A stretch of 64,000 nucleotides of DNA from Hippasteria phrygiana (Eukaryota; Echinodermata; Asteroidea; Valvatida; Goniasteridae): contig JAZGUH010000452.1 in the NCBI GenBank assembly GCA_037893225.1, forward strand, positions 806,001-870,000, read 5' to 3'. The position numbers and the translations under genes are program-made. Under the pieces are notes generated by a model. It saw only the letters and a list, made by a program, of their open reading frames with translations, was not told the DNA's origin and did no database searches. Positions 10,752 through 49,650 of the stretch are shown in pieces. Numbering within the stretch: position 1 is the first letter of the stretch; each line of letters begins with the position of its first letter.

Positions 10752-11015
10752 ATCAAACAATCCACAAGGGAAACTGAATAGGTAAATCCGAATAGATTTT
10801 CAATGTGAACAAAGAAACTGGCAGGAGCGGGATTCGAACCTGCGACCTCCGGGTTACCGTACCGGCGCTCTACCAACTGAGCTATCTTGCCCTATGTTGG
10901 CGGTCTCCCAAATTGTCAGTATCTTTGTTCGGGTGGGCGCTAGTCAGAAGTCATAAACCCAGAATGCCATATAGCCAGGGATCACACCCAATTTTACGAT
11001 ACCATCTGGGAAACG
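10752..11015 (-). repeat. tRNA-derived SINE, family A, copy 1
   Basis: The tRNA-like head is 10891-10819 on the minus strand. It has box A (TAGCTCAGTTGGTAGAGC) and box B (GGTTCGAATCCC), ending GCTCCTGCCA. The anticodon stem does not fold correctly and a non-tRNA tail (TTTCTTTGTTCAC, then CCCTTGTGG) follows, so it is a SINE and not a tRNA gene. A further block on the 5' side (10892-11015) is shared with the copy at 11486-11634. Confidence 0.8.
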
Positions 11016-11861: not shown

Positions 11862-20453
<8,592 letters not shown>

Positions 20454-21213: not shown

Positions 21214-24200
21214 ATGGCTTTTTCACGCAGTCCAGCGAGAGGGAGTCTCTGGTGTTTCGTGTACATGACAATGGTGTTGCTAAGTTCACCGATGGAGGTA
21301 CGTTCAAGGAACTTGCATGAATGAGGAAATAGAGGATATTGTACGGTGTCAGTGGCATAATATGTGAATTAAAGCTACTGACTACAGTTTCATACGAGTA
21401 GGCGTTACATAGGCCTACCTGTGCTTTGCTTCAAATTGCCTTTAGCTACTGCCATTTCTTATCAATAGAATTATGACTTTATGAAACTATCAAGTATCAT
21501 TCCTTTTAATGTGAAATCTAAATTTTAATATTTACTTGAGTTTTATTAAATTATTAATCATGAATGAGCAGTGATAATGTGACTGAAGCAGAATAGTAAC
21601 TTTATTAAATCTGAGCATCCCCAGCTTTGGACTGATTATTATCAAAATTCTAGACAAAAAATTTGACATATGATAAATATATTGATAAACTCAAATTGAT
21701 CAACTGTAGACCTTATGATTATCCAAGCGTTATATGTTTTTCAAGGGTAGAAGTAGCCTCACAAGTGTCAAGGAAGACTTGTACAATGTACATTAATCTA
21801 CTTGTCTTAGCTCGCCCTCCCAGCTAATGTGTGTCATTTTACCTCATGTTTTCCGAGATTTGAATACTGCTGCATGAGCGTGCATCGGAATCGAACATTT
21901 GCGCCCGAGCCGAGATTCTAAAGAGAAAGCGGTTGTGTGGCCAAGGATACAGCGCAGTGAATCTTCCTTGTCACTTGGGGCTAGGCTATAGAAGAAGACA
22001 AAATTATTTTTAAAAATCACATGCAAGTTAAACAGAAAAAAATCCCACTTAATCACTTTATTCCACAACCATATAAGTTATACAGGCATGCAACTTTTCC
22101 TCGGATCAGCTGATTTCCTCGTTTTTCACTTTACACTTTAGGGCCTTAGCTTGAAAATTCCAGCTCTAGGCTCATGACATGTAGAGCTGGAATTTTCAAG
22201 CTATTAGGGCCTATGCCATTGAAAATGGAAAAACACTGTTCAAAGTCTTCAAAAAAATTGAACTTTCTTCGTTTTTTTTTAATTCCAAGTTGCATGCCTG
22301 GTTATAAATTATGTCATGCTCCATTATTGCTGGCACCCTATTTTGCCGGCACCCTAGAAACATGTTTTGTAGTCTGGCTGGGACTGCACACAGCACCAAA
22401 TCAACACAAATGCCATTCACCGTTTTCCCTGTGTTCAGCATTCCAGCTAACGAGTTACATGAGCCCATCAGAAAGAACCCATATATATACTGAAGTTCTG
22501 TGGGACCAGTATATATGGTGCTGAAATTTTATATGCCCAACTTTTTTTATCCTTAATTTTGGTTTCTTAATTGCCTAGGTGGAAAATGAAGACGATAAAT
22601 GTGGACCCAAAATGTATTGGGAATGTCACCTTCCCACAGCTACACCTGATCCTACCACCACAGATGCACCTGATCCTACCACCACAGATGCACCTTCAGC
22701 AGTTCAGAACACTACCGGTACAACTACAAGAGATATGCAAACATCACCAAACTCTTCAACTACTGTACCAATGGAAACTACTGTATTTACATCTTTAACA
22801 ACAATGGCATGGAACTGCAGTTGCGAGCCCTGTATTGAAAATTGTGACAAATGCTTTAGTGGAGGTCACGCCTGCCTAAATTGTAGTAAGGGATATGAGG
22901 TCGAACCCACAGCTAAACGTATTTGTGAGCCGTGCAATGCGAGATGTTATACAGTCTGCAAAGATTATAAAGATTCAGAGTTATGTAACTGCATGGGGAA
23001 TCAAACTTTAGAATGCCAAACGTGCAACGGACACACCATGTATCATGGCAGTTGCATCAAGCCCTTTCCAATTGCTTTGGTGATCGGCGCCACTATTGGT
23101 GGAGTTATGCTCATCGTCCTGATCGTTATAGTGTGCTGCTGTGTCTACAAGATAAGAAAACCCCCAGCACCTGTTGTAAGTACCAAACAAAATTTGAAAA
23201 TAAGGCATAGCCCTTTCATACTTATTACATTTTTTTTACTAAGGGTGTGCCCAAACAGTTAAAAACTATAAAAGTAGTTTCCATTGGGCCCTGCATACAT
23301 TTTTAATTAAAATGAATATTTACACACATACAAAAAATAGATATTTACACACAAACGTGTACACACCGTCGTACTTCCCCAATATGTCCAAGGATAATGC
23401 TTTGTGTTTCCTATTGTTCCTTTAATATAACCAACCCCCATAGATCTACTAAGCACGTATCCTTACGTTCGAGGACCGATTTCAACAAAAGACTCTACGT
23501 TCGAGGACTGAAAGGTTTCTTTGTGTTTCTTTTCTTCTCTTGTCCTCGGAGATATATACAGTGCACGTACAGTCATACTTTCCCAATACCATTGTACTTC
23601 CGAGGATTGTTCCTTTAATATTTAACCCAACCTCATAGACTAAGCACGTATTTTTATGTCCGAGGACTGATTTCAACAAAAGACCGACTCCCGAGGACAA
23701 GAAAGATTCCTTTGAATTTTCTTTCTCCTCTTGTCATCGAATGTATAACCTGTACACACACATGTATAACACATACAAGAATATTTACACAAATAAATCT
23801 GGTTATTTTTAATGTTGTTGAAGGCCTGGTTTACTTTCCCACTTTTGGGGGCCAATTTCATAAAGCTGCTTAAGCAAAATATATTGCTTAAGCACAAAAA
23901 CCTTGCTTAGTAAAAACAGGTTAGCAGCCAAAACTCCATGTGATTTTTATGTTAAGCAAACAACAGCTAAATACCAGTCACAAGCAATATACATCACATG
24001 GAGTTTTCATAAGATGGAATTTGCGTCTGGGTGATGTAGATTCAATATTGGGTTTTGCCCTTCACCGACGTATTTTATAAACACTGCATACTCAGTGTTG
24101 TCCTGAGAGATTATTTGAAAAAATATTATTTGGAAATATATTATTTGGAGTTTTGGCTGGTACCCTGATTTTATTAACCCTAACCTAATTCCCTAACCTG

Positions 24201-27200
24201 CCAAAATCAAACACCCCATTGTGTTGAATTTTGTGTGATTGTGTACTGTAGAGCCTTGGCACCATCACTTTGCATGGGACTTGATGCCCTGATTTTGTCT
24301 AAGTACAAAGAATGTGCCATTGGTTTACTACACAGTGTAGGAGTTTGTGTGGTTAGGGAAGGATTCTAGTAAAAAGGCTTGGGCTGTTAGGGTTAGCAAG
24401 GTTTTTCCTGCTTAAAAGCAAAATTTTGTGCTTAAGCAGCTCTATGATATTGGCCCCTGGTTGAAATGTTACAAGTATAAGAGAGTAAAATCTTAGGGTT
24501 TGCCACAAACATGTTGGATTAAATTTTGTTTTAACAGCCCGGAATATCATGCAAGCAATAGTAAAAACAACATAAGCCAAATGTATGTACAGTAAGGAAA
24601 TCAAATGTTCATGATTCAATATTCATGATTCAACTGGTCTGTAGCATTCAACTATTTTGGGGAAAAAAAAGAAAAATAGTAGAAATGACTAAATGAGTGT
24701 AAAAGAAGAATTGCTGTCAAATTATTGTGAACTGAAGTGATTATTTTTTCTTCTCTTTCTAGAAAAGGGATTACAGGTCCAGTAAAGGCTCAGTGCAGGT
24801 AAAAATAAATTTGTGATTGTTTTGGGGCCAGTTTTAATCCATTTGTATTTTGCCTATCTATCTATGTGCTTGTCACTCTCACTGTCTATAGGTGAATGTA
24901 TGTGGATTGGGTTTCAAGTATCTCTACATGATTGAATTTTGTGATCATTTATCTACTTCTTTGTTATACCATCTGTCTATCTTTGTATCTGGTCTGATCT
25001 TTCAGTTAATTTCTTTTTGTTTGTCTGTCTGCCAAAGAACGTATTTGTTTACTGTTTCTGTGTGTCTCCTTCAGTCTAGAGCAAGTTCGGGTGCTGCTGA
25101 CCTAGTCCTTTTTGTCAATTTGCTATTTAAAAAACGCATGCGTGGTCTGTCCTTCACTCGAACGCATCTAGTCGATCGACTACGTCAAATCTAGTTAGTG
25201 TACAGCAACAACAAACTGCAAAGAATGTCGTCTGCTAGTGCTAGTTGTTAACGAAGCAAATGTTTGCATGTCATTTCTATTTTCTATTATTTATTTCTAT
25301 TATTTTCTCTACTTAACTTTGGTGCAATAAATATTTCATTATCTTATTGCACAGAGTTATTATAATTGGACAAAAACAACAAATTATCGTAAACGTTTGC
25401 AAAACTTGCCCAGTTTACCGATCCTCCATCTTGAAACCATGACGTAACTCGCGAGTGACTAGAGAAACCATGGTCCGGAGCTAGGTTGATCCAGTTGGAC
25501 TATAGCTAGTCAAACCGCGCAGCGTTCGGGTGACATCTAGATCGACTATGGTTAAGTCTAGTCATTCTCGTCGCCCAACCGAACTTGCTCCTAGCTGTTT
25601 TTCCCACATCTATCATAACTTCTGTTAGATTTGTTGGTTTTTGAGTGCTGATGAGATTTCTACCAACACACATTTGTCATCTTCCATTATTGAATTTTTC
25701 TCGTTTTCAAACACTCGTCTTGTTTTCTTTCTTGTTTTCTTTCTTGTTTTTGGATTCTGTTCCAATTTTGTTTGCATCTTTTATTTTCTGCTGTATGTCT
25801 GTGTAGTGAATGTAATGCTATTCGCGTAAGTAGAATGCTATAATATTATTCTATTCTCATTAAGTTTTGCCGTTTCTCCTTCTTTATGCTAATTTGCCAC
25901 CCTACTAATTCATGCTCCTTTTAGCTGGACCTTCGCCATCGGTTTTCAGGATTCAGTTCATCCGAGGATGAAGCTAACGTGGCCTTTGACAATCCTCAGG
26001 TAAATAAAGACACAAAACAATCCAATCAAACTCCCCACCCTCTAACATGTAGCTCTGTCCATCCTCAATGGTGTAATAGAGCTTCTCCAATCAGCATGCT
26101 GCATGATATTCTGTTTATTTTTTATTGCATGCAATCGGCATTAACCAGTTTCTTGAGTTTTCTAATTCGTGTAAGGAATTCATGTATTTTGGTTCTTTTA
26201 TCTATAGCCAGCTGATGATGATGTGTACGGTAATGTGGATAACCAAGGTAATATGCTGAGGTTGGATATGCCAAATGAACGCCAACCCAGCCTGCCAATG
26301 TCAGATGTCCCGACCAGACTTGCTCCATCAGAACCAGACTTCGGTGATGTGTATGAAAACACCGTCATGGGACAGCCTGCCGAGCCTGTACCAAAACGTG
26401 TCCCTGTGACTCCAGTCAAGCCAACAGCACAAGAGGAGGCGGAGCCAAGTGACTTTGGGGAGGTGTACACCAACACCGACTTTCCACAAACCGTGACTTC
26501 ACCGTCAAATAATCAGAAATTTTTTCAGAAGAATGTTCCTCCGGTTGGACTGAAAATGCCACCCCTTCCTCGGAAAGCATCACAAGATCTGTTGAGCCAG
26601 CCTCCTCTTAACCCTTCCTTACCCACAAGGCCTTGGGACAATCTAAATAAAGATAATAAGCGCAAGGACTTGCCGACACCCCCAGTCATTCCACAAGTCC
26701 CAAGGAAGCCATTTGAACGAGAAGAGTCAGTGGATATGCCGAAACATGCCCCACCTCCGCCACCAAAAGTGACTTCTTCAAAGCAAGAAGCAGTGCCCCT
26801 AACATTACCACGACGAGAGCCTCCTCCAACACCCACTAAGAAGTTTTCTAGTCTTCCAGGTATGTCTCAGCCTTCCATGACAAAGAACTTTACCGATGAG
26901 GATGACAGACTTCCAAAGACATCACCACCACCTCCGCCAGTTTCTTCCTCTGCTCCAAAAGGGATCGCTGTCTTCCCACCGAATGACGACAAACCTCCGG
27001 TTCCTGTCACCAAACCGCCCTCACTTAAGAAGAAGAAACCGCCAACGCCCAAAAAGACTATCGGTGAGTATCTTTACAATGTATGTCCTAGCTGGATGCC
27101 TTGTGTTGAGCTAAATGTTGTTTAATGAAGAACAAGAAGCACAGTACAGTACACAATGTACATGATTGATAGCCTAACATCATTACATGATCAGGAAAAG

Positions 27201-30200
27201 GAGGGTTTCACGTTCTTCTAGAATTGGAGTTGGAAGGTTTTATTGGTGAGTCAAGGAGAGCATATATCTGACGGCACATGATATCCCCCCCCCAACCCAC
27301 ATAGACTTCGATTTGAATTTAGTAAAATTCTCCTGTACTTTCCCTCTGAAAATCCGTAGCCAGCATTGTCTCTTCCTATATACCCCCCCCCCCCCCAAAT
27401 AATTATTGAGTACTAAAGCTTTGACTCAATAAGGATGATTTTAAAAGAGTACTGAATCATACCATATCGATTACGATTCCCTCATTAGTGGGAATTGTTC
27501 CGTGTGAGCTTCAAAAGGCTAAAACAATGGTGGTTGGACGTGTGCAAGATCCGTTACTGAAAGAGGAAGGAAATCACTGGAAAAGTACATGTACATGTGT
27601 ATGTGTGTCAGGGTCAGACATTACACTTGATCATTTCACATCACTACAAAAATATAACAGTAAATTTCATTGACTTTGGCTTTTGAGGCCAGATTGTACA
27701 CAGACTCACATGGATCCTTAAGACTTCTACCAACTGTCTGTTCAAATTTTCTATTTACTGGTAATTGAATTTTTTGATGGAATTTGTTGACTTCCTTCTT
27801 TTGGTTAATAATGAAGAAGCAGAATGGAACTGGAATTCTCCTTTAAATGTTGAGTCAGCTCCGGAAACAGGAAATATAAAATGCCTGAAACATGAAATTG
27901 GAGGCAGAAATTAAACAGGCTTGCTACATTCTCTTAAAGGGACACAATAACGACACTTTTGCTATTCTTTATAAAAAGATTAGAGGTTCTTATTTGTATC
28001 TTCTAATTTGTTTTCAAGGTTAAATATAATGGTTTCCATAAATATGCCTTAAAATTTGTGTAAAACAGACTTGGGGAGTCAATCACTTGAGTTAACCCTA
28101 ACGTCCTAGGCATTCATCACTTGGGGTACAGTACACTGTACTACAAAATACTACTCAATTCCCATAGGCCAGTGTAGTAAAAGTACTGCATACTACAGTA
28201 CTATTACTTGAGTTGTATTTTGTTATTATTATTATTATTATTATTAATTCTTTCTGGTAATGAAACCAAGGATTCCTCAAAAGCGCCCTAGGCACTGTAG
28301 CTCGAAAGCCTGAAGAAACCTTTAGAGAGAAGACAATAAGAAGAAGTTACAGTTTTAGAGGTGGGAGGAAAACCCCAGAAGAATATTCTGGGGAAAACCC
28401 ACGGAATCAGGTAGGGACTGAAAACCCAATTCACATGTGGACCAGGGCAGGAATCGAATCCGGGCCACAGCGGTGAAAGGCAGGGACAGTAACCACTGCG
28501 CCAACCTGATTCCCTAGTGTTATTCGGTGACGTTTGGGTTAATGGATCTGTGCTGCACATCTGCATGTCAACCATAGTGTGCATAATCACTTGATTTTCT
28601 TTGCCTGCGTGTTTCTGTAGTTGTTTCAAGTTAGTGTTCAAGTTTTGAGTGAAATAATAATATTAGCTTCAAGTACCTTCGGAGTTTTGTTTTACTGATT
28701 CACCTGTTTTTGAATCATGAACACCGACACTGAGGTAACAGGTGTTTTCAATTAAGATGAAGTATTCTCATATTTCCCTCGTCAACCTTGTATTTTTAAA
28801 ATTTCCCAAAATTTGCCCAAATGTGGCCATTCATCATAAAAACAGGACAGAATTTTTTTGGAGAATTTTGGAAGATATTTTACTACAAGTGCTCAAGATT
28901 TACAAAAATGATAAGAGTAACAATGTCGGCTTTCACAGTACATGTATTGAAATAATACAGGTTGTTTTTTTCACCAATGGTGAAAGTTACCCCGCCTGCG
29001 TCTGACAATTGGAATAATTTCTTTGGTAGGACCTAACTACAATGTATGAAGATTTATCATCTATTTAGATCTAGACCCAGGAAAACCTTAAAGGGTGGTA
29101 TAGGGCTGGCAACTTAAACTGTGAATAACCTCACCACCTCTGTCCCCTTTACCTAGAGTGACGTTTAGCCTTGTATTGGGTGACTTCAATAAAAAATAAT
29201 AATTAATGGAAATCCACTACATGGTATCATGCCTAATGTTTAAAGTTCAAGTGCACAATGCACATCTTGTAAAATGGAATAAAATAAAAACTTGTTTCTG
29301 GGTCATGTACTATCTCTTTTGGTCCACTCTATCAAGAGATATTTTTACAACCAAAGGAGATACATTAATTCTACACGTACTTTGCCTGGCATTTGTGTAA
29401 ATATGACACCACTCATTAAGTTTCATATTAACTTATGGGTCTGGAATGTTGTAACAATTGTAACAAGTGGCATGGGTGGCTTGTGCGTAAAGCGCTCGCC
29501 TCTCACCAATGTGGCCCGGGTTCGATTCCCGGCTTGGACCATATGTGAGTAGAGTTGTGCGTTGGTTCTCTCCTGTGTCAAAAGGGTTTTTCTCCGGGTC
29601 CTCCGGCTTTCCTCCCTCCGGAAAAAATCAAACACTTTTGATCTCTGGCTGTGCTCCGTGGTCATATGTGGGTCGATGTAGGCCGGCTGCCAGAGGCGCC
29701 TTTACGTGCCAGCGACTCGACCACGTTGTAGCCGCGTCCTTCGCAATTCAGCATCCCAGCTGCGAGTAAGGATGATTAGCCTCCCAAATTATAATTATTA
29801 TTATTATTATTTTCAGTTTTAATAGGATTGCGACAGTTATAGTATCAGTTTTAAGTCAGTTTAAGTCAGCAATGTGAACCTACTACTTGTAGGTTTCCTG
29901 TTCTGGACAGGATTCTGGACAGGATTTTGTTTCTGAGGTGTTAGTTTCAAGTTTAATGTCAGACAGTCACTAGGTGATGGTCAAAATAAGTTAGTTTGAA
30001 GATGGTGTGAAGATTGTCAGAAGATTGTAAGAATACATTGAGAAAATTGTCTTAAGATCATGGTTTGAAGATGGTTTGAAGGCAGCTAGTCAGATGTATT
30101 TTGAAGATTATTAGAATATGGTCTGAAGATGGTCTGGAGACTGCTTGAAGATGCTGAAGATTGTCTTTTTCATTTTGATGGTTAAAATGGTTAGAAATGG

Positions 30201-33200
30201 TTTGAAGATAGTTTGAAGATGATTTGAAGGCAGTCAGAACATGTACACGTATGTAGTTTGAAGAGCAATTTCAAACATTTAATTTTTGGGATTGGCTTTC
30301 TTTAACGGGTACCCAGATACCCATGTTTTTTTTCTCAATCGGGTACCCCATTCCCGCACTACCTGTAAATGCACCCGTAATACACTATACATGTAGCTTC
30401 ATGTATACTTTGTTGTACACATGACCAAGTTCATGCATGACTTCTTGCCAAATAATGCTCAAAATACAAGACTTGAATACTTCAGCTTGAACCTAGACAA
30501 GGTGCCAGCCTGTATTGTGAATGTGTATTGTCTAGGAAACCTTGAACAAAGGTCACGTAGCAGTAGGAAGTACATGGAATAAGTTGGGCAAAATAGTTTG
30601 GGAAATTCCCTTTGGATACCAGAAGCGCATACATGTACAGTCGAACCCTGATAATAAGAGCACTGTAATACAACATACTGCTTCTAACAAGGAAAAAAAC
30701 AGGTCCCGAGTCTTTGTTTTTCTTTGTTTTCCATTACTGATAATACAAGGTACCTGTTATAACAAGGTAAATTGTAAAGTCCCAAGGACCTTGTTATAGA
30801 GGTGTTCGACTGTACATGTGCCTCATTTGGCAAGACAGTCTTAGGCAAAAAAAGCCATTGTATTAAACCAGTAGAGACTAATAGAAGTGATGTCATAGAT
30901 TTTTTTGTTTTTGTTCTGTTTTTTTGTTTTTGTTTTGTAATACATGTACGTTGCTTGGATTTTATTAAAATGCAGAGATGTGAATGGATAGGATATAAGT
31001 CGTAAAATGTAATGTTTTCTAATAAAATTTGTCTCATGTTGCATTACGCTTGGCTGCACAAGCTCGTTTTGGCATTGAACACCCCCATTAATAACAGGCT
31101 GGCCAGAATGGGTTAACATACTGACGTTCGGACTGTTTGCCATACATGTACATCTATATACGCTGCAACCTACCTGTATGCAGCCAAATGATGATACAGA
31201 CAAACTTGAAGGGCGCCCCTCTCTGAATTTTTAAATTTTCCAATGGTCCAACTTTTCGAATGCTGGCATCCCTGAAATGATTTTCATTAACCCTCTCTAG
31301 ATCTCATGGTGCCAAAATGGAGCCAACTACCCTACCTATCAAAACCTATCGAGTTTCAGGTTGAAACACACAGGCTGTTGAAGAGGAAGGGCTTAGGTTT
31401 TTGATAGGTTATGATACATGTAGTTATAACAGTAGGAGGGTTAATGATTTTCAGACAAACCACATTTTCAAGGGATATCGATTCGATGGTCCTGTGCATT
31501 ATAGTCTTCTACTTTCTAACAATCTTTCCCGGCAACTATAGCAATTTTACGACAGATTCTTTTTATAGCCTAATTGACCTATCGCGGTCGAATCGCATCA
31601 ACGCAGCTTGTGAATTATTGTCCAATCACATCCATTATAATTTCACGTGGAACGCGCAAAATCTGTGACAAAGAAAAATTACCACACAAAATTCCAACAG
31701 GGTTGTCTAAGGGGCGTAGTTAACTCGTAAACGGCGATCGGTCAATTGGGGGCCTAGGTAATCTGGCCCTTATGCATAGCAGTTGAAAATCTGTATATTG
31801 CCTCATCACCTTCACCTTCACCCTTACCCTTACCTCTTTATTGGTAATGGGTTCCTTGAAACCTAAATATTAGATTCTTTTTAGATTTGAGCATCACAGT
31901 GTTTTCTTGATTTAATTGGAGATAGTGGGTTGTCAGCTGGGCTTACTTGGACCCCCACCGCTGGTGACCTTAGTTCGATTGGACTGGGTGTAATTGTTTT
32001 CCGGAATTTTTCCCGAGGCACGGTTTCCACAACAAAGTGGACTGAATTTTTACCGGTATTTTATTGCAGTGTATTATTTTACGAAATTGAGAATTTGTTT
32101 AACAAGTACCATACTTTCCCATACAGTTAGGGCTCGTGGTTTTCAATTACAAAATTAAAGTAACCAATTTTGTAAACACAAACGTGGCTGAAAATCAGTA
32201 CAAGGGAGCCTGATAATATGCCAGAGACTTCTCAAACTTTTTCATTTGTGTTTCAGCCGAACTTGATATCCTCATTTATTTATTTTTTATTTTTGTTTTA
32301 TTTCTTAGGATTGACATTTCAAAAGACAAGAAATACAGATAAATATAACAACAGATGACAATAGATGAAAAACAACAAACATGAAGTAAACAAAAACAGA
32401 TGCCACCTGATAAGAGATCACTAAAAGAAGCAAAGTTACTGTCTGATAGTGTTTGATTGTCTTGTTTTAATTGCAGTTCGTCACATTGATGATGATATAC
32501 ATGGTGCTGTTGAGATCGGAGTTCGCTCAATCCAGAACAAACCGGTTCCCATCAAACCAGTGAGTCCAGATTTCGGTGACACATATGAGGTTACAATGGA
32601 ACAGCAGCCTCAACATGACTACGGCATGAGCTATGAAGTTACCGAGATTAGTCCCCAGAGTTCGCCCAAGCATGATTTTGGTTTGTCTTATGAATACGTT
32701 GGAGAACCAGGTACTGTAGATCAAGATGAAGATGAAGATTATGGTGGGTCTTATGAGTCAGTTGAGATTCCCCGTGCTCAGGATTACGGCGGGACCTATG
32801 AGGTAGTTGATCTTGAGCAACCATCAAAACTCAAAGTGGATATGAGTCGGCGAGGACCCTTACCCCTTCCCAAGAAGGGCCCTGCCCCGTCCACAAAAAG
32901 TAAACCATCACGAGGTGATGTGTATGAAGATCCTGATAAACCAGTGATGCATAATCGACCTTGGGGTCCCCCGCCTCCACAAGACAAATCTGGTGACGAG
33001 GAGCAGGACTTTGGGGGGGATCACTCCAATGCCTCTGTGGCAGGACCTGGGGTTGAAAATCCCAAACCTGCAATGCGTCCCCACCCAACGCTTCCCAAGA
33101 AACTCTCTAATCTGACGAAACAGGAGGATTTCTACGAACAAGCTCTCGGCATGGACGCTAGTGATGCCAAGGCAAGACTAGAGCAGTTTCAGAAAGAAGA

Positions 33201-33324
33201 AGATGATACCATTTATCAGAACAGCCAGAGTGCAGGAGTCGTGAATAGGTATAGAAATGTCCCCCAAAGAAAGATGGATCCTTCTACTAAGTTAGGGGGC
33301 TACATCACAATAAACAAAACGTAG
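21214..33324 (+). CDS. Type I membrane receptor with Cys-rich ectodomain and tyrosine/proline-motif tail (6 exons, 831 aa)
   Basis: Not recognised as a named gene. Exons: 21214-21297, 22579-23175, 24763-24798, 25925-25999, 26208-27063, 32477-33324. All sites are GT-AG with consistent phases, total 2496 nt. The ATG has a good context (GAGATGG) and gives a 28-residue signal peptide (hydrophobic core LWCFVYMTMVLLSS) that splices in phase 0. Next come a Thr/Pro-rich stalk with a tandem DPTTTDAP repeat (residues about 48-100) and five N-glycosylation sequons. A furin-like cysteine-rich domain follows (about 107-187, 16 Cys), then a membrane span (about 193-217) and the stop-transfer CCCVYKIRK. The roughly 610-residue cytoplasmic tail has spaced tyrosine motifs (VYGN, VYENT, VYTNT, TYEVT, SYEVT, SYEYV, SYESV, TYEVV, VYEDP, IYQN) and PxxP runs. 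YxN and PxxP are established Grb2-type SH2 and SH3 ligands, so a signalling receptor or adaptor is inferred. Ligand and pathway are unknown. Confidence 0.85.
22147..22203. mobile_element. 57-bp minimal MITE with 9-bp target duplication
   Basis: The unit starts TAGCTTGAAAATTCCAGCTC and ends with the inverted copy GAGCTGGAATTTTCAAGCTA. It is almost entirely the two ends back to back. TTAGGGCCT flanks it perfectly at 22138-22146 and 22204-22212. The ends match those of the 559-bp element at 45633. It lies in intron 1 of the receptor gene. Confidence 0.85.
23368..23745 (+). repeat. CCGAGGAC interspersed repeat, tandem dimer
   Basis: Two units of about 185 bp follow each other (from about 23368 and 23570). 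Both have ACTTCC, then TTGTTCCTTTAATAT, AACC, CATAGA, TAAGCACGTAT, GAGGAC, GATTTCAACAAAAGAC and TTTCTTCTCTTGTCCTCG. A single unit is at 53762-53955. It lies in a receptor intron. Class unknown. Confidence 0.75.
23847..24457. mobile_element. MITE with GGGGCCAATTTCATA ends, with inner insertion
   Basis: Left end GGGGCCAATTTCATAAAGC with CTGCTTAAG. The right end, inverted, reads GGGGCCAATATCATAGAGC with CTGCTTAAG; 25 of 27 bases match. Sub-terminal TGCTTAAGCA words are repeated. An independent repeat (24172-24400) sits inside. Confidence 0.75.
24172..24400 (+). repeat. CCCTAACCTG interspersed repeat, copy 1 (nested)
   Basis: Matches 52335-52562 in inverted orientation almost throughout: CCTGCCAAAATCAAACACCC, GTGTTGAATTTTGTGTG, CACCATCACTTTGCATGGG, AAGAATGTGCCATTGG, GGATTCTAGTAAAAAGGC. 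The ends show short inverted CCCTAAC/GTTAGGG. No coding frame. Confidence 0.8.
25079..25590. mobile_element. MITE with GAGCAAGTTCGG ends in a receptor intron
   Basis: The ends GAGCAAGTTCGG and CCGAACTTGCTC are perfect inverted copies. Inside them are GACCTAGTC and, inverted, GACTAGAC, and further CTAGTCGATCGACTA words. About 512 bp, no frame. It separates the exons at 24763 and 25925. Confidence 0.6.
27368..27398. repeat. Poly-C tract
   Basis: A run of about 17 C in the large receptor intron, close to a shorter run at 27286. Length is likely to vary between individuals or assemblies. Confidence 0.8.
28288..28515 (-). repeat. tRNA-derived SINE, family C
   Basis: On the minus strand a tRNA-like head (GGAATCAGGTTGGCGCAGTG, then CCCGGATTCGATTCC) is followed by GGTTTTCCCCAG-type sequence and a GAAACCAAGG end. 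Box B (GATTCGATTCC) is clear. It lies in the large receptor intron. Confidence 0.65.
29463..29795 (+). repeat. tRNA-derived SINE, family B, copy 1
   Basis: The head contains TGGCTTGTGCGTAAAGCGC (box A region) and GGGTTCGATTCCCGGC (box B). A conserved centre follows (TTTCTCCGGGTCCTCCGG), then GCCGGCTGCCAGAGGCGCC and a 3' end GGATGATTAGCCTCCCAAA running into a TTA microsatellite. An inverted copy is at 37220-37531. Confidence 0.8.
29990..30260. repeat. Degenerate TTTGAAGATGGT minisatellite
   Basis: At least ten variants of TTTGAAGATGGT or GAAGATTGTC at irregular 11- to 20-bp spacing, in the large receptor intron. No open frame. Confidence 0.55.
30638..30812. mobile_element. pogo/Tigger-like MITE with TA target site
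   Basis: Left CAGTCGAACCCTGATAATAA and right TTATAGAGGTGTTCGACTG are inverted, both directly flanked by TA. CAGTCGAAC-type ends with TA duplications are typical of pogo/Tigger elements of the Tc1-mariner superfamily. At 175 bp it has no transposase. Confidence 0.75.
31291..31440 (+). mobile_element. CCCTCC/CCTATCAAA MITE, copy 3
   Basis: Left CCCTCTCTAG and right AGTAGGAGGG, flanked on both sides by TTAA (31287-31290 and 31441-31444, the left preceded by CA). The internal core AAAACCTATCGAG, GGTTGAAACACACAGGC and TTTTGATAGGTTATGAT matches the other copies. The TTAA flanks suggest a piggyBac-type target, though other copies are less clear. Confidence 0.7.
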
Positions 33325-36001: not shown

Positions 36002-39000
36002 ATGGATCGACTTTTACATGTGTCGCTTTTGGTAGTGAACGTGCTGAATGTTGTCATTGTTGCACAAAGTACGGACACGCCTTCAGCCGATGTCTTACTG
36101 AATGATAGGTAATGTTGAATCTTGCAATTTTATGATAAAAATATTGTTGTGACGTGTTTTTGAACGTTTTCTTTCGGTATGTGGGCACTTTTTGTCTTGT
36201 AGCCAGTCCAACTGATTTTTACCTGTATGCGTGTATGGACAATTCCTTATAATTCATGCTTTCCGAAAGGGGGGAGGAAACGGGGTAAAATCCCCTCCAT
36301 ACCGACAGTAATTTGGGATTAAAGTCGTGTTGGCCATGGCTTTTAGTGTTAATTAACGTCTCTTTCCCCTTTCTTTCAAAGGAATTTTCCCATTCGAAAT
36401 ACATGTAGTATTTGTGAAAAAAATAAAAGGGGCACGCCCCGCCCTTTAGCCCTGTATCTGCGCCTAATGGTGCTGCACGCTACGGGAAACTCATCATAAT
36501 GTCTGCAACTGAAACGGCGTTCAGCCGTATAAAGGTCGTTTTTTTTATCAATTTTGCTATGCACCTGCATGCGTATAAGAATTGACCTTTAGTACCGAAG
36601 TCTGACGTCAGTTGCCACGGCAATGGTTCCAAACACATGCAGTTTAGAATGTATTCTGGTTCCAAACATTGCATTGATTGACGTCATCACTTCGGTACTC
36701 TATAAGACACTGGGTAAAATCCAAGCAATACCGCGTATAAAGCTACATATACCAGCACCATTGCATTCATAAAACAGTGATGGATTTTTACGATGAAACA
36801 GACGGGTCTGCTGTTGTAAAAAAGTGTTGTAATTCGTTTTAAAAGCCGTGCGGACCTAGTTTTGATTGACGTTTGTTTGTTCATCATTACTCCACACATA
36901 TCAATTTCATTCAGGTGAATGCATTCTAAAAGAAATACATGTATACCAGGGGATTCTAAAACAGTAACAATTTCCAGATGTTGGTGGGAAAGGGGAATTG
37001 GGGAAAGAAACAAAAGACGATGAAACTACAGGACGTATAGCCTAAATCGATAATTGGACGGACGAACAAATCACGAGAGATTAAGAGCCAGACGGGTTCT
37101 TAAAAAAATAGGGATAGCCAATTTGCAACAAAATTGCTTGTCTCCCATAAATCTCTTCTTCGAATGTATCAGGTCGGTGCAGACAATTTATATCTGTTTG
37201 TAATAATGTATAATAATTTATATTTTGGGAGGCTAATCATCCTTACCCGCAGATGTGCTGAATTGCCAAGGACAGGGCCGGCTACAACGTGGTCGAGTTA
37301 AAGGCGCCTCTATATCTAACCCATATCTAACCACGGAGCATAGCCAAAGATCGTAAATGTTAATTTTTTGCGGAGGAAGGAAAAACGGAGAACCCGGAGA
37401 AAAAAAATCTCGTGGCACAGGAGAGAATCAACGAACAACTCTACTCACACACGGTCCGGGCCGGGAATCGAATCCGGGCCACATTGGTGGGAGACAAGAG
37501 CTTTACACACTTGCCACCCATGCCACCCTATTCACAGGGAGATCTAAAGCCCAAAATAGCAGGAAAAAAATATGGAGATGAAATGAAGAAAAAGCTATTT
37601 TCATTTTATTTGATGTCTGTGATGTTAATTCACAACTAGGATCCATGCATATATGAAGCAACACGTCATGCTTCCCTTGAGAAATAACAGTAACCTTTGA
37701 AGTCACAGATGCATAGCGAGTACAAGGCTATACTCAGGGAAATTGTCGTTTGGATGGATTGCACAGCGTTGGCTCTATTCTTGATAATGGATGAACTAAT
37801 TTCATATGATGATGTGTTTTTGCACAAATTAGGTTTTGCATGCAAAGGCTAACAATGAGCTTTTCGGGAACAGAACAATAATATATACATTCTGAACGAT
37901 AAATGATGTGCCTTCTGCTCTGTGGCGTATTGAGCGCGGGTGCAATTTTGCCATTAAAAATATATATGTTTTCTCGACCAATGCAACAAAATTGTGTTTA
38001 TTTTCATTAACACGCTTTCAAGTCCACGCCGTTTTTCTAATTCAGTCAAACTAGTTTTCTCTCTCGATATTACTGCATGCAGTTTCGTTTTTGTGCACAC
38101 AAAATTTCGTTTTAGTCACACAATTCAAAGCTACATTTTCACCATCCTTAAATTTCCACCATGCATTTTCAAATGGTGGAATCAAAAAAATCGACTTCAC
38201 AGAGAGGTGTATGTACCAAGAACCAATGTATAATGAATTATTTTCGATATATCAGCTTTTATATAGACAATTACGAATCAGCATGCACGCATGCCGCAGA
38301 AAGGATTTTGAATGCCAACATTAGACAAATGTTTGCCAATAAGTGAAATTGAATTTCTGACAACCTCTGGCAAGTGGCTTCGACGAAATTGATTGAACTA
38401 AACAACCATTTGAATATGAATAATCTTATTTGTCGAGTGAATTCTCAAATAATGAAACAGAATTACTCTTGTTGACGAATGAATGCGGATGTGAAGAATC
38501 ATTCATTTTCAAATGAAACTGAATAAGCTGGTTAATAAACAGAACGCTTTTATTGTTGAAGTTGTTAGGGGAACCTCTACTAAACGTTCTGGTTTGAACT
38601 TTCAAATTTGTGTCTGTCATAAAATGTGATGAAACTTTTCATTCAGCACACAGAGCGATTTCAACATCGAAGACGCCCTCAGGCGGTATGGAGTCCAGTC
38701 AACTCGCCCGGGTGAAAAACTTGGTATAATAGATTTCGTCTGTATTTCATTGGCCTGTCTGTTTGTTTGTCTTTCCGTTTGCTTGTTAGTTTAGGTGATC
38801 TTATCTAATGGTAAATCGACTGAAAGGAAGACAATATGGCAAAATAGTCTCACTAGTTCTCACTGATATACTGATTTGACGTGCATGATTTTGAATTAAT
38901 TTTTACTGATGCACTTTTAAAGTCTTGCCTATAGGCAATCGACAGTGGTTATAATTAGTGGTGACAACATATTTTAATGCATGTTGTATAAGATGTTCCT

Positions 39001-42000
39001 CAATCCATTACGTTTAAATAAAGAGACAAACATGCATCTTTGATTCAGAATCACTTTCACTTTATTTGTTAGGATTCTATAAATATGAAGCAACAAAGCA
39101 CTTATTATACGAGATGTTGGGGTCGGTAACAGAAAAGGAAAACTCCCTACAGAACACGTTTAGTACTGTTCATTTGGTGGACATGATGTATGCTTGCCTG
39201 TGTACTTAATCCATCCCCTGCCTATCTTATGACTTATTTGCCCGGACCTTCGTTCCCATTTCTATGCATTTTTTACGCACACGTACCCATACATATTTGA
39301 TTCCACATTAACTTTATAGTCGGTGATGCAACTTACGCCTAAATTATAGATTACACCAAGCCATTACTAGCTGCGTGGTGAATAATGTAGGTGTATATTC
39401 CAATTTTATCCCACAAGAATCACGGAGATAGAATTTGATTAAACCTCGTCCTTGGTAAAAATGTTCAAACCATTTAAATGTTGTATATGGTACACTGCAT
39501 AATAATGTGAATATTCAATGTTTGCTCGTTTCGTGTCATATTCTTCTTGACTACCTTTTATATCACCTTTATTCAAAACGTTTAAAATGCATAATATCAT
39601 TTTAACAGCTTTGAAAGTTGTATGTTATACACAGTGACTCCGCTCACGACTGTTCTATTTTCTCAGACGGACATAATTCCAATGGCATTATTCATCACTG
39701 TATAATGCCTGTGCCTGAAGGGAACATGCAGAACATTTTGATTTTATGTAAGATTATGGAAATATTTAGGAAAATCTCAATAAAAAAAGATACATTGGAT
39801 TGATTTCATTTTTTTCTCCAATTCAGGTTACCCGGATGATGTGTACTGTAACTTACGGTCAGTACGAATTGACGGTATTGACCAAGTTAACATGGTAGGA
39901 ATACATTAACATAATTAATTATCTGATTGAAAATAATGATTTCGTGATGTGCCCTAATCAGACATTGAGCACCAGAACATATATGCTAAGTTACATCAGC
40001 TACCATAACATTGTTTACACCGTGAGAATAAATATTTAATATCCCGAGATTGTTCTTAATTTTTTAAGGAATGAAATGAAAGTGAAAACAAAAATATTAA
40101 AGTCTTCTTCCTCATACAAGCATCATCTTGCAGTATCTTGTGACATATATTTTCACCATGATACAATTATCAAGCATTAATCTACAAGTCATTTTCCTTT
40201 AGTTTCGGTTCCTCATCTTGATTGTAGTTTAATTTATGGAAGCTTATGATAATAAAGTACAGTGATTATTAGGAAATAATGCGCAAGGGAGCTTACCCGA
40301 CTTTGAAGTTTGTGGCACAAAAAGGGCTCTTTTACAAAATTGCATTAATTTTCAGAAAATAAGAAAGAAAATCGAAGAAAGAATGCGAATTTCACCGAGA
40401 GCGATACATTGCCATCGTAATTCTGACAGCAATATTGCACATAATAAACAAATTAGTTATGTCTTTGAAATCCGTTGTAACAAAAAACAAACATTCATTA
40501 ATTGGACTGATTGGTCCTATGGGGAGAAGAGCTATAATCTGCTTTATTAACTCTTCATAGTGCTCGACAACTTCAATCTCATGTACCGGTATAATATAGT
40601 TGAGGCCCCTGGCAGTTGGGAAGTCGTTCCCCATCCTCCTGTGATTATGTTTCTAGATGGAGGGGGCGGGGCTTTGTCTCCTTGTACTTACCATTTTGTA
40701 CACTTTTTCTGATGGAATTAAGGCATTTACGGTCACGTTAACCCTGGAGATTACGTGGGATGACTACCGTCTGCAGGATCAGCTTCCCAACTCGGAAACA
40801 TCTTACTCAATACGCGGGGCAGATATCGATAAAATATGGCTACCTGATCTGTACTTCCCGATGTTGAAAGCCGGCAATTTCCATGAACTCACTGCAACCA
40901 ACAGGATTGTGAGGGTCAATAAATATGATTCGCCTGGGGTGTATTACATCATTAGGTGAGTAGATGATCTGTCCCTTCGTTAGTCGGGTTGTCTTTGTGT
41001 CTGTCCTTTGGGCCCTGCCTGTCTGTGTGCAGTTTGTGTTTGATCATGGGCATGTATGAGGGGCACCATGTGGGGGACATCTCTCATGCAACGCCCCATG
41101 TTAAAGGATGTAAGCCCCTCCCTCCAAGGGTGTGAGCCCCCTCCAATTGGGAGAAGTGCGTGTGAGCGCCGGCCGTCAACGACTTCAAGCCCCCAAGGAT
41201 TCGTTCTTTTCCGGCAGTGATCTGAATCCCCGGGGTAGGCCCAGCATGATTGGATCCCCTCCCGTGAAAAAAGGGCATATACGCAAGGTGGCTCCACATT
41301 GTTATGCCTTTGGGTTTGGTATCGTAACAGTGTGGGTTCGAACCTCCCTATTTTTACCGACTGGTATCCCTTTTGACGGCAGGTTAACTCTGACACAGTC
41401 GTGCAGTATGGATCTTGCATTCTTTCCCTTCGATTCACAGAGGTGCGACACCCAGATATCAACTTGTAAGTCAAATGCACTTTTCTTCATCAACTTGTAA
41501 AACAAGCTAAACCTTGACCGTTTTCAAAATATGTCCTATTACAAAACAAAGACAAGGATTATCTATTTAATCTATGTATTATGGAATATAATCATAATGC
41601 TGAGATTTCCTCGTATAACCAGACTCAAGTAGTTATTGATCAAAGACATTGCTAAGATTCTGAACAAGGTTCGGACAACAAATAACCTATAACACTATTT
41701 CCCCACCCGCTCTTCGACACCGGCACTATACCCCAGATCAGACACCTGTTGATTAGCATTTTCCTATCCAGTTTCCTATTCAGTTGATGAGTTGATGCTT
41801 CACTGGAACTCCTGGCAGATCAACGACGATAGGAAGATTAAACACAACCTGCCTGATTTCTACGAACCTGTAGAGAAAATGTACAATTTCGCTATAGTTA
41901 ACACGTACACCGATCGGGAGAACGCAACCTCGACACTTAATATCAGTGGGTAGTTTCAATTCTGATGTAGGGGCCTATTTTATTTTCTTCAATACATATC

Positions 42001-42418
42001 GCATGACAGAATTTATTATTATCTGGGGAGTTTGGGCGCTTGTTGTTGCTGGTGTTGTTATTGTTGTTGTTGTTGCCGTTGTTGTTGTTGTTCTGTTTTG
42101 GTTATGTTCTGTTCTGGTTTTATGGGGGCTCAAAGTATCTGCTTTGTTGAAGGTCAATCTTTAAAAAAATTTCCACCACTTTTTGTCATTTCTAAAATTC
42201 CCCGGGACCATTTTTTTTTTACTTGAAAAGTATTTCACCATTAAAGTAGGGGTTGGGTTGGGGTATAGGATGTCCTCTTATTTTCGTCCATCTTCGTTGT
42301 GCCGTGTAGGTTACATACGCAATCATTCTGTCCAACATGTGCGATCGAATGTGCAAGACATCTTCTTAGGGCACTGAGATGATATTTTATATTTTGATTG
42401 AATATTTGTTGTTGCTGC

Positions 42419-42459
<41 letters not shown>

Positions 42460-44030
42460 TTGTCATCTGATTGTCGATGCGCATGAAATCGAATTTTACA
42501 GCTTTTTATGTTTCTCACTTTGGGTGTGGTTTTGTTCAGTGTACAACCACCTCTCTGAGCCCCTCCTTCGTGGCGCCATTTTTCGTTTCCTCATTCCAGC
42601 CTATTCCGGCCTGGGCTTGTCCATCTGTATGTACAGAGAGGGTGGATATTATGTGTTGAATCACATGGCAGCGTCTCTCCTGTTAGCCACACTGTCATGG
42701 CTTAACTGCTGGCTAGACCCGGAACAAGCGCCAGCTAGAGTATCGCTTGGGATTACTACTGTGCTTGCGGCCATCACCCAAACAAGCAATTCACGAAGGG
42801 GACTGCCACAGTTGTCCTATATCACGGTAGGTTTAAAGAGAGCACAAATTAGGAGGACTTCGTCAAAATCGACTGTAATTGCCATTCTGTTCATTTAAAT
42901 TTGTACCCTTAAAATTGTCAGTGTGCTAACCTTACATTGTGTGCACTGTACTATGTGAAGCTTAAGGTTCTTGCAACCCGAAATTTTGATGTGATCCCTT
43001 AAAGTGTTTCCCTTCATTTTGCGACATATAACACTCACCCCGAAATGCCTCTAAGGTTGTTTTTTTTCCAAGAAAGAGAGAGAGAGAGGGGGAGAGGGAA
43101 ACATTATGTGGACTGGATCATGGGCAAGTCCACATAAAGTCCAGTCTTCCTGCATCGTGTGGACATATGCAAGGTTAGAGCAAGTGTGTATACACCTTCA
43201 ATCGGGGACCTCCTCATATTGTTCAGGACCCTCATTGGTTTTGTACACGATTTTCAACCTGCATGGGACCTTTCTCAACCGGGGACCCTTTTGTCCTCTA
43301 TTGTTAAATGTCCCTGTTGAATGCAAAAACAAACCCACCCACCCGCCCGCAAAAACCATCCTCAAGAACTTTCCGCACCCGAATCCCACTAGGCTTTTAA
43401 CAAAGGATTCTGATTTTGTCAACTTTCAGGCTTTTGACATATGGATGGCTGTCTGTTTGAATGTAACTATCGTTGGACTGATTGAGTATGCGGTGGTTCA
43501 CATCCTAACATTCCGCGCCAAAAGGTTAGAGGACGAATTACAATGTGTTGAGAAAGTAAGGCAGTCATCTGAACCATCGTCACAAAATGTTGAGGTAGGT
43601 CTGGTTTTGGGATGGTTGGGGGGAGGGGGGGAAGCCAAAATAAGGATTTTTTCTCTCACGAAAAAGTGGTCAAAATTGTGGGTCAATCTTAAAAATATTT
43701 CAAAAGGAAGATTTAGGCCCTACCAAGGATTTACTGAGTATTATTTTGGTTTCAAATTTGTCCTAGACGTCCTTCGCGTGCCAACAACGCAATGCAGACG
43801 CGCCAAGATTTGCCCCGAATTATGTGGGCCAAGACCCCGCTAGCAACCCTGTGCCGCCCGCCGCTGGTAAGGAACATCAGCTACGGGACTCCATGCACAA
43901 CCATCGATTATGGGCTGAAAGAATCGATGTCTTTATGAGAGTATCCATACCATTATTTTTGTTCCTATTCATGAGTGCATTCATGGTGTTGTATGTTTTC
44001 ATTGGTGATGATTGTGAATTTATTTTGTAA
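36002..44030 (+). CDS. Cys-loop ligand-gated anion channel subunit, GABA-A/glycine receptor-like (9 exons, 457 aa)
   Basis: Subunit of a pentameric neurotransmitter-gated channel in the plasma membrane. Exons: 36002-36108, 38647-38711, 39827-39894, 40723-40955, 41383-41465, 41784-41945, 42600-42826, 43430-43594, 43767-44030 (1374 nt, phases consistent). Seen: signal peptide in exon 1 (LLVVNVLNVVIVA); WLPD motif near residue 119; Cys-loop with exactly 13 residues between C165 and C179 (FPFD core); M1 near 256-277; the PAR motif at the M2 base (284-286), which in known members goes with anion selectivity; M2 with GITTV; M3 near 318-338 starting AFDIWMAVCL; a short M3-M4 loop; and M4 close to the C terminus. 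The second loop-C cysteine pair of vertebrate glycine receptors is absent, so the subunit could be GABA-, glutamate-, histamine- or proton-gated. The least certain junction is exon 6 to 7: a GTGGGT donor and the acceptor at 42599 restore the frame and align loop C with M1. Confidence 0.9.
36590..36702. mobile_element. TAGAGTACC MITE, short copy in channel intron 1
   Basis: Ends TAGTACCGAAGTCTGACGTC and GACGTCATCACTTCGGTAC are inverted. The inner GGTTCCAAACA and TATTCTGGTTCCAAACA words match the element at 5699-5979. About 113 bp. Confidence 0.7.
37220..37531 (-). repeat. tRNA-derived SINE, family B, copy 2
   Basis: Inverted copy of 29463-29795. On plus it runs from TTTGGGAGGCTAATCATCC through GGAGAACCCGGAGAAAAA to GGGAATCGAATCCGGGCCAC and TTGCCACCCATGCC. 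It lies in the first intron of the channel gene. Confidence 0.8.
42406..42463. repeat. TGC/TGT trinucleotide repeat in channel intron 6
   Basis: About 19 units of TGT, TGC or CTG between the exons ending at 41945 and starting at 42600. A shorter TTG/CTG tract is at 42041-42092. The poly-Cys frame they create is not coding because the spliced exon starts downstream. Confidence 0.85.
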
Positions 44031-46983: not shown

Positions 46984-48572
46984 ATGGCAGGGGAAGAGTT
47001 TATTGCTGTTGATACCAGACTCGTTGACACGTTGACACCAAACCAAGATCCAGATGGTGAACTCTCCACCATTGAAGAATTTCTGGAGTTCTCGACTGCA
47101 GAGTTGAAATACTTTCTCTTAAACATGGGGGAATCAATTGCTGGTAAGTCTAAAATGTAGATAAATTCAGAGCTACGTAATGATTGGGAAAGACATGTGA
47201 AAAGAAATAGTCAAAAGTGAAGTGGTTTCATTGCTCAAGAACATTTGGAATAGTTCTGTGTTAAGTCCTTGGACTTGAGTCAAGCCTGAGTCAAATTCCC
47301 TGTGTAAAGTCTGAGTACAACTTCTAATATAATAAAAACCTTACATAGTGCCTTGTATTCCTAAACGACTAAGATTTTGTCTGTGTATTTGTTCAGATTT
47401 ATGCATACAGTTACAGCCATATTACTTCAAAGTAAAGTCTAATTTCGAACCATTTCTCACCTTGACTCAACTTCAAACCCAAGTCACAAGTCCAATAAAT
47501 GTTTCTATATATTTTTCAACTGTTATTTAATGCAGGTTGCAGAGCTGAATTGGCGGAACGTGCCATCCTTGCACAACAACGCAAGAAAGATGCCGGACCC
47601 AGCGAGCCCAAGAAATTCAAGATTGAACGGGAAGAGTCCAAAGGAGACTATGCAAGTGTTCTTGAGGAGTACGGTCTAACAGACCCCGATGTTGCTAATG
47701 AGTGGAGTGTTGACATCTCTGACCTACCAATTCTTGATGTCGGGAAGATCTTTCACTACATCCTAACAAAAGAAGCCTTTGATACGTACTACCTGAGTGA
47801 GTACAAAACCAAGAAGGCATATCAGTACCTGGAGTCTGTCTGTGTTAGAAGCATCCAAGTGCACGTCGCTGTCGATTTCATCTTTGTGAAAGGGGCCATA
47901 GCACCACTAAACCAATCGGGAGACGGCTTTGATGCCCTGAAGCCTCCCAACATTGTTAAGGTATTAGCAACTTCAGACAATGATATCATTGTGTCATGCT
48001 GCTCATGTACAGGAGATCTGTACCAGTGTTGCAATCATGTGATTGCAGTCCTCTTCCGTATCGAGCGTTTGGTTAGAGAGATGGACTCGCAAGACACGAC
48101 AGTGAAAGCGCCTGATGTCAATCTAGATCACCAGGACAGCTTCAAGCCGGTGAAGATCAGTGATCTCTTCAAGAAGAAGGACCCTTATTCCCAAACGCTT
48201 CTGGACAAGATACACAGGCCAACTGCTGAAGAGAAGCGACGATTTATGGAAAAGATTTGCCAGACCATACCTAATTGCTTGTTTGCACAGATGTTCAAGG
48301 GGTCCATCGGAGCAAATCAGGCACCAGGTCAGGTTATTAAAGTGACAAGAGCAGTTGTGGAACCGAGCAGAGCCCAACCTGCCACTACCTTTGCAGTACA
48401 GACAACTCCTGCACTCCAAACGACCCCTGCTGCTCAACCAATTACCCAAACTATCCAGACTGCGCAAGTTACTCGGGCTGCTCCGGCCAGCATACCTGTA
48501 CCAGTCAGTGAGCCAACAGGAGTTAGTCAGACTCCCAAGGCAGTTGAACATCCAGGACCTGCACCTGTTTAA
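46984..48572 (+). CDS. SAP-like and SWIM zinc-finger protein (2 exons, 398 aa)
   Basis: Exons 46984-47143 and 47536-48572, GT-AG, phase 1, 1197 nt. Residues about 27-65 (EEFLEFSTAELKYFLLNMG and the following AELAERA) form a SAP-like helix-turn-helix pair that crosses the intron. SAP modules usually bind DNA. The middle of exon 2 has a SWIM zinc finger, CxC-x6-CxxH type (CSCTGDLYQCCNH), near residues 200-215. The C-terminal 100 residues are low-complexity, rich in Gln, Thr, Pro and Ala (repeated QTTPA). Many marine invertebrate proteins combine SAP, SWIM and a YqaJ-like nuclease domain; here the frame ends without any nuclease motif. An upstream exon 46393-46430 joined to 46968 would add 18 in-frame residues beginning MGSNGNVSDCKQ. 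It has a good donor (GGTAAGAA), so the true start is uncertain. Function is unknown; DNA binding or a transposon-derived origin is inference. Confidence 0.8.
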
Positions 48573-49421: not shown

Positions 49422-49650
49422 CTGGCCCACCCCTGGCCCACCCCTGGCCCACCCCTGGCCCACCCCTGGCCCACCCCTGCCCCACCCCTGCCCCACCCCT
49501 GCCCCACCCCTGCCCCACCCCGGGCCCACCCCGGGCCCACCCCGGGCCCACCCCTGCCCCACCCCGGGCCCACCCCTGCCCCACCCCTGCCCCACCCCTG
49601 CCCCACCCCTGCCCCACCCCTGCTCCACCCCTGCTCCACCCCTGCTCCTT
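49422..49650. repeat. 11-bp minisatellite (CTGGCCCACCC)
   Basis: About 20 units of an 11-bp word, in three variants ordered in blocks: CTGGCCCACCC, CTGCCCCACCC and CGGGCCCACCC, ending with CTGCTCCACCC. Because 11 is not a multiple of 3, every frame on both strands stays open, which produces false Pro- and Gly-rich frames. Confidence 0.9.

Follow-up and report, generated by a model that had tools for sequence, protein, structure and literature searches.

The 64,000-nucleotide stretch of Hippasteria phrygiana DNA analysed here (positions 806,001 to 870,000 of contig JAZGUH010000452.1, assembly GCA_037893225.1; hereafter the window) carries on its forward strand a gene for a transmembrane protein with a long tail rich in tyrosine motifs. 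Six exons between positions 21214 and 33324 are spliced into a single frame of 831 codons with a TAG at 33324, and the five introns, all of them GT-AG, have phases 0, 0, 0, 0 and 1. In the encoded protein a stalked ectodomain is followed by a single membrane span and by a tail of some 610 residues (609), which holds 18 tyrosines and 98 prolines and in which Pfam detects no kinase domain. This layout and the conservation of the tyrosines among sea stars are best read, with a probability of about 0.7, as those of a kinase-less transmembrane scaffold working like LAT or CD6. The exons, with the parts of the ectodomain and the membrane region, are:

21214-21297 (+): exon 1, residues 1-28, start codon and signal-peptide-like stretch, placed by its GT donor and frame
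22579-23175 (+): exon 2, residues 29-227, with the stalk, Cys-rich domain and membrane span
22627-22806 (+): mucin-like stalk, residues 45-104, 57% Thr, Ser and Pro
22816-23064 (+): Cys-rich domain, residues 108-190 (cysteines 108-187), weakly like R-spondin furin repeats
23077-23145 (+): membrane span, residues 195-213, and inner-edge cysteines 214-216, from hydropathy and sequence
24763-24798 (+): exon 3, 12 residues (228-239), in phase, missing in the Acanthaster record
25925-25999 (+): exon 4, 25 residues (240-264), in phase, missing in both Asterias records save one aligned residue
26208-27063 (+): exon 5, residues 265-549, YxN sites and proline-rich region
32477-33324 (+): exon 6, residues 550-831, tandem Y-E array, C-terminus and stop codon TAG

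When 5.8 billion protein clusters were searched with phmmer, three relatives came back, each of them from a sea star: Patiria miniata (P0001; 38% identity over 100% of the protein, named 'formin-like'), Acanthaster planci (P0002; 37% over 99%, 'titin-like') and Asterias rubens (P0003; 31% over 83%, 'proteoglycan 4-like'). A profile search returned the same three. A fourth, from Asterias amurensis (P0004, 'uncharacterized'), came from a search with the tail only and was then aligned along its whole length; that search also found Patiria and missed Acanthaster and A. rubens, indicating limited recall. Such a protein search had been proposed in a preliminary description of the locus, and all four relatives align from N- to C-terminus and share the order of the tyrosines along the row. 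Identities to the 831-residue protein in the five-way alignment are 45, 44, 36 and 36%, and an unrooted tree of the five places it between the two Asterias sequences on one side and those of Patiria and Acanthaster on the other. No Pfam family passed its cut-off (searched at E up to 1 for the 831-residue protein and up to 10 for the relatives) and no PDB chain passed E 0.001, the sole PDB match up to E 1 being TMIE (E 0.04) at the membrane-span region, in keeping with the earlier opinion that no named family has this layout. The Pfam names TMIE, TM_ErbB1, EphA2_TM, Insulin_TMD and melan-A, among others, were rejected as under the cut-off and matching the membrane-span region, as was BNR, a 10-residue stretch also under it. 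No description of the sea-star protein was found in the open-licence literature, among the matches listed; it is apparently unnamed, while the kinase-less multi-tyrosine scaffold is itself an already known kind of protein.

The GT-AG introns, the one open frame and the relatives bear out the six exons and 831-residue product first described. When the Patiria, Acanthaster and A. rubens proteins (A. amurensis was not included) were compared with the window by tblastn at E up to 1, matches fell in exons 2, 5 and 6 and, for Patiria only, exon 4; a few weak ones begin up to 37 bases 5' of exon 6, and none lies wholly inside the 5.4-kb intron at 27064-32476, where a missed exon had been considered. 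In the five-way alignment the gap in the Acanthaster record corresponds exactly to exon 3 and that in both Asterias records to exon 4, bar the one aligned residue. Since both exons are in phase and these gaps fall at exon borders, the pattern looks like cassette splicing adjoining the membrane, and it gives independent support for those borders. A mis-joined gene model was rejected, as the relatives continue across the exon joins.

The introns also harbour repeats. Two in intron 2, at 23362-23578 (+) with a 92% identical copy at 53758-53974 and at 24167-24391 (+) with a 94% identical copy on the opposite strand at 52342-52567, are probably young mobile repeats. A dispersed element occurs at 29467-29809 (+), within the long intron, and at 37201-37526 (-), the copies being 78% identical; with its tRNA-like box GGTTCGATTCC and ATT-repeat tail it looks like a tRNA-derived short interspersed element, and a 59-base piece of it is also present at 28423-28481.

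The ectodomain extends for about 166 residues from residue 28 to the span, and the counterpart of exon 2, span included, measures 135-200 residues in the relatives. The mucin-like stalk of the preliminary description is borne out by its composition; sequons N72 and N86 lie within it and N107, N129 and N169 outside. The proposed signal peptide stands in part, as the N-terminus is hydrophobic and passes the 1.6 cut-off of the hydropathy scan in the four relatives but stays under it in the window protein. The same scan finds one strong span besides the N-terminus in all five sequences, as had been described. Cysteines follow at the inner membrane edge in every one (CCC or CC, with a strict CxxC in Patiria only), and those at 214-216 form, judging from the sequence, a possible palmitoylation site. 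With a signal-like N-terminus and only one span beyond it, the protein would have its tail on the cytosolic side.

Ten cysteine columns of the Cys-rich domain are invariant in the five sequences, and the cysteine spacing of its first module follows what we take to be the furin-like pattern of R-spondins and growth-factor receptors. The furin-like label has nevertheless fared poorly: Pfam gave no furin-like match to the whole protein up to E 1, and searches with exon 2, with the Cys-rich piece and with the four relatives gave none even up to E 10. The domain was modelled at a predicted local distance difference test score (pLDDT) of 57.4 and whole exon 2 at 42.6, with the membrane helix alone confident. 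R-spondin and growth-factor-receptor furin-like repeats are the best, though weak, structural matches of the domain, which differs from R-spondin furin repeats in having no Pfam match and a likeness confined mainly to the first 31-61 of its 83 residues; the model thus points weakly to a furin-like domain. If such a domain paired with a receptor, the protein might serve a growth-factor receptor kinase as co-receptor or docking subunit, with a tail of FRS or Gab type. That the model is of low confidence, that Foldseek also lists chains of TNF and LDL receptors, and that the domain is only 40-44% identical, with about 40% of its residues missing in A. rubens, make this an improbable explanation.

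Evidence for a LAT- or CD6-like scaffold lies in the tail, whose length and want of a kinase domain agree with the preliminary description and which holds 18-21 tyrosines across the five proteins. Three classes of tyrosine site can be distinguished. The first, YxN, is the Grb2/Gads form, the second is an array of tandem sites that mostly read D-x-G-x-x-Y-E-x-[VTI], and the third is a single Y-I-x-[ILM] at the C-terminal end. The sites, with the two most conserved SH3 motifs, are:

26226-26228 (+): Y271 (DDDVYGNVDN), YxN, invariant in five of five sequences
26352-26354 (+): Y313 (DFGDVYENT), YxN, invariant in five of five
26466-26468 (+): Y351 (DFGEVYTNT), YxN, invariant in five of five
26559-26576 (+): class II SH3 motif PPLPRK (382-387), kept in five of five
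32569-32808 (+): tandem array Y586, Y602, Y621, Y642 and Y657, Tyr and the next Glu invariant in five of five at each
33085-33102 (+): class II SH3 motif PTLPKK (753-758), kept in five of five
33214-33216 (+): Y796 (DDTIYQN), YxN, in three of five
33250-33252 (+): Y808 (RYRNV), YxN, invariant in five of five
33301-33303 (+): Y825 (GGYITI), Y-I-x-[ILM], invariant in five of five

The tail holds seven copies of [DE]-[FYWHS]-G-x-x-Y against 0.02 expected from shuffled tails (0 of 5000 shuffles reach seven), five of YxN against 0.75 (reached in 5 of 5000) and six of Y-E-x-[VIT] against 0.17, Y313 being counted in both of the last two. For the four relatives, 0 of 500 shuffles reach any of the three counts. 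The similar acidic contexts noted previously are therefore present, but the array forms a separate class, Y-E-x-[VTI], so that the tail is not purely of Grb2 type; likewise the four YxN sites reported (271, 313, 351 and 796) are all there but number five, Y808 having been overlooked. Class I and class II PxxP motifs are interspersed as described, at nine each against 1.9 each expected (0 of 5000 shuffles), a more than fourfold excess that is smaller in the relatives and weakest for class I in the Patiria protein (5 against 2.0; 25 of 500 shuffles). YxxM, YxxL/I, NPxY, YxxP and the immunoreceptor tyrosine-based activation and inhibition motifs (ITAM, ITIM) are none of them notably above shuffles in the five proteins. 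Because motif enrichment could come from tandem duplication alone, conservation is the more telling test.

In the five-way alignment 12 of the 18 tail tyrosines are invariant, as are 103 of the 610 tail columns (hypergeometric 2.3e-6, a calculation that treats columns as independent, which they are not). The two Asterias sequences, being 93% identical, together count almost as one, and a four-sequence alignment gives 104 of 610 columns and 12 of 18 tyrosines. The invariant tyrosines are 271, 313, 351, 586, 602, 621, 642, 653, 657, 769, 808 and 825; the longest invariant run in the tail is Y271-N276, and tyrosines 231, 598, 623 and 638 vary. No other residue type of the tail is invariant as often as tyrosine, proline coming next (30 of 98). 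The ranking bears on the suggestion that the protein is a structural or extracellular proline-rich one, or a mis-joined model. Its high proline content (98 of 609 tail residues) would explain the formin-like, titin-like and proteoglycan 4-like names, but the invariance of tyrosine before proline, the presumably cytosolic position of the tail after a single span, a layout common to the protein and the four records with gaps that fall on exon borders, and a set of Pfam matches that includes no FH2, titin or PRG4 domain, for which reason membership of those families was rejected, render this very unlikely indeed.

Around the nine motif tyrosines, the neighbouring position is invariant at -5 in seven cases, at -3 and +1 in six each and at +2 and +3 in five each. 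Spacing within the array is 15-16, 19-20, 18-21 and 15-21 residues, with one gap of 45 in Acanthaster, where an insert (P0002, residues 569-614) with extra DxGxxY copies widens the array and gives evidence of a change in copy number. Other departures are C at +3 of 602 in Asterias, M at +3 of 657 in Acanthaster, and DYA in place of DxG at 621 in Asterias. Conserved tyrosine spacing, which the preliminary description had looked to for support, is thus seen within the array and between 808 and 825 (16-19 residues) but not elsewhere, where it varies, for instance from 42 to 68 (271-313) or from 175 to 235 residues (351-586). Two PxxDY/F positions, which we take to be of the Nck/Eps8 SH3 type, are present in three and four of the five sequences, and RxxK and PxxxRxxKP, presumably of Gads/Grb2 C-SH3 type, are not kept or are absent in the five-way alignment.

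The array also invites comparison with an adhesion or phagocytic receptor of mucin type whose tail drives actin, in which Y-E-x-V would load Nck-type and YxN Grb2-type adaptors that together recruit N-WASP. The composition and sequons of the stalk agree with such a receptor, as does a tail that combines YxN with the Y-E-x-V class. However, the array has E at +1, the usual Nck SH2 form being Y-D-x-V, and no adhesion domain is found in Pfam. We regard this receptor as unlikely, if still worth keeping in view, given that in one case studied paired Nck and Grb2 phosphotyrosine sites lie upstream of N-WASP and that their relative position matters (PMC9333988).

Elsewhere in the window, exons of a Cys-loop neurotransmitter-gated ion channel lie downstream at 40657-43843 (+), where Neur_chan_LBD is found in two open reading frames and Neur_chan_memb in one, over the cut-off, and a fourth frame falls under it. 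Three predicted tRNA-Thr(GGT), at 10819-10891 (-), 18281-18353 (-) and 49851-49923 (+), sit inside longer repeats 86-94% alike and thus perhaps represent a repeated tRNA-bearing element, not plain tRNA genes. An open stretch at 12893-13264 (-) with an acidic tyrosine-rich run and no Pfam match up to E 0.1 is possibly an exon of another gene. An open frame of 357 residues at 47499-48572 (+) has no Pfam match over the cut-off and contains a C/H-rich stretch that to us recalls SWIM-type zinc fingers, and a tandem repeat of 23 copies of an 11-bp unit, CTGCCCCACCC, occupies 49422-49676.

On the established gene model, layout, conserved sites and lack of a Pfam kinase domain, a course of events can be proposed for the LAT- or CD6-like scaffold. 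Without a kinase domain, phosphorylation would need an outside kinase, so that the earlier proposal of a transmembrane adaptor or co-receptor-like protein is the best-supported reading. The small ectodomain would sense or cluster, and clustering or a ligand would bring the tail to a Src-family kinase, possibly together with Syk, which would phosphorylate the proline-rich and presumably disordered tail. Phosphorylated YxN sites would then recruit Grb2/Gads-type SH2 adaptors, and the Y-E-x-[VTI] array a second SH2 class, for which Nck-, Fes/Fer- or Src-type SH2 domains are our guesses. The C-terminal Y-I-x-[ILM] at Y825, which we take to be a PLCgamma/SHP2-type SH2 site, may recruit a protein of that kind, as YLVV does in LAT, and the proline motifs would add SH3 contacts and raise the valence. 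The output of such a multivalent tail would be a signalling cluster at the membrane, comparable to those of LAT or CD6. Candidate partners are at hand in Patiria eggs, in which transcripts have been reported for Grb2, Cbl, PLCgamma, Syk, Csk, Fer, Abl, SFK1, SFK3 and a BLNK-like protein, and for an SH2/WW protein resembling lancelet GRB2-related adapter 2-like (PMC11593052). That study is a catalogue of SH2 proteins, and in the sections covered LAT is mentioned only within the T-cell complex.

Several considerations weigh against the scaffold. The Patiria data concern transcripts, not proteins, and in a comparison with ten SH2 proteins of the T cell homologues are given for Grb2, PLCgamma and Cbl only (PMC11593052). 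Residues -4 to -1 matter in kinase recognition (PMC9333988), and around the nine motif tyrosines -4 is invariant in three cases, -2 in one and -1 in two, making upstream constraint partial. Neither Asterias sequence has Y796 or Y699. Few SH3 motifs hold their position, with two of the nine class II motifs kept in all five sequences (two more in four of five) and none of the nine class I motifs (at most three of five). Motif enrichment is explicable by tandem duplication alone, as the shuffles show non-randomness only. The relatives may be orthologues or paralogues, and absence outside sea stars is uncertain, the protein search requiring shared 5-residue words and the tail-only search having missed two known relatives.

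If a scaffold of this kind exists in sea stars, it would bear on two questions. In amphioxus, SLP-76, GADS and Itk were found without LAT, and the authors suggested, as one possibility, a membrane-bound molecule that is as yet unknown (PMC5431462); by analogy, the sea-star protein is a candidate for a molecule of that sort. In sea-star fertilisation, Src-family kinases and PLCgamma are involved in the calcium rise, the signalling set is partly known, and the pathway was modelled by the authors on T-cell activation (PMC11593052). It is conceivable, though doubtful, that a membrane platform nucleating a Grb2/BLNK(SLP-76)/PLCgamma signalosome arose in sea stars on an evolutionary path separate from that of vertebrate LAT; such a platform would fill the LAT gap in invertebrate deuterostomes that have the cytosolic parts, and would be a candidate for what connects Src-family kinases to PLCgamma in the eggs or coelomocytes of sea stars. 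With a conserved protein bearing putative Grb2-, PLCgamma/SHP2- and SH3-type sites, both questions can be put to the test. This protein may bring signalling proteins together at the cell surface in animals without a described scaffold of this kind, and its gene was hidden behind misleading automatic names.

Among known classes, three were rejected. The protein is not a receptor tyrosine kinase, there being no kinase domain in Pfam for it or the four relatives; nor an ITAM/ITIM immunoreceptor, with no ITAM in any of the five and one ITIM each against 0.46-0.59 expected; nor a p130Cas-type substrate domain, with one YxxP against 2.9 expected (0-3 against 2.8-3.8 in the relatives). Closer are the transmembrane adaptor proteins (TRAPs: LAT, LIME, LAX, NTAL/LAB, PAG, SIT and TRIM), with which it shares a single span, no enzyme, a long tail with at least about ten tyrosine motifs, including several YxN sites and a single Y-[IL]-x-[hydrophobic] site, and cysteines at the inner membrane edge. 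It is unlike them in its stalk and Cys-rich domain, and unlike LAT in a tail rich in SH3 motifs; the LAT tail is also shorter, and we know of no TRAP with a tandem DxGxxYE array. Pfam includes TRAP models, and no TRAP-family homology appears among the Pfam matches of the protein (E up to 1) or its relatives (E up to 10). TRAPs combine a short ectodomain with one span and a long multi-tyrosine tail, and a juxtamembrane CxxC palmitoylation motif is present in four of seven members (PMC2803307). Since its ectodomain is not short and homology is lacking, the sea-star protein is not filed as a TRAP, but it may work like one: in LAT, Y171, Y191 and Y226 are YxNx Grb2 sites (PMC3291652) and the YLVV site takes PLCgamma1 (PMC10525366).

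CD6, together with CD5 and CD19, offers the other comparison, that of a real ectodomain joined to a long catalytic-free tail. The CD6 ectodomain consists of SRCR domains, and Pfam finds no SRCR or immunoglobulin domain in the five sea-star proteins. The sea-star tail also differs in length, about 610 residues against 244 in CD6 (PMC5440646), and its relatives were found in sea stars only. The YxN site of CD6 binds GADS/SLP-76, and CD6 and CD28 YxN peptides bind the SH2 domains of GADS and GRB2 at 1-4 µM (PMC5440646). As no homology is detectable, the likeness of the sea-star protein to LAT and CD6 is, as far as can be seen, one of convergence and not of descent.

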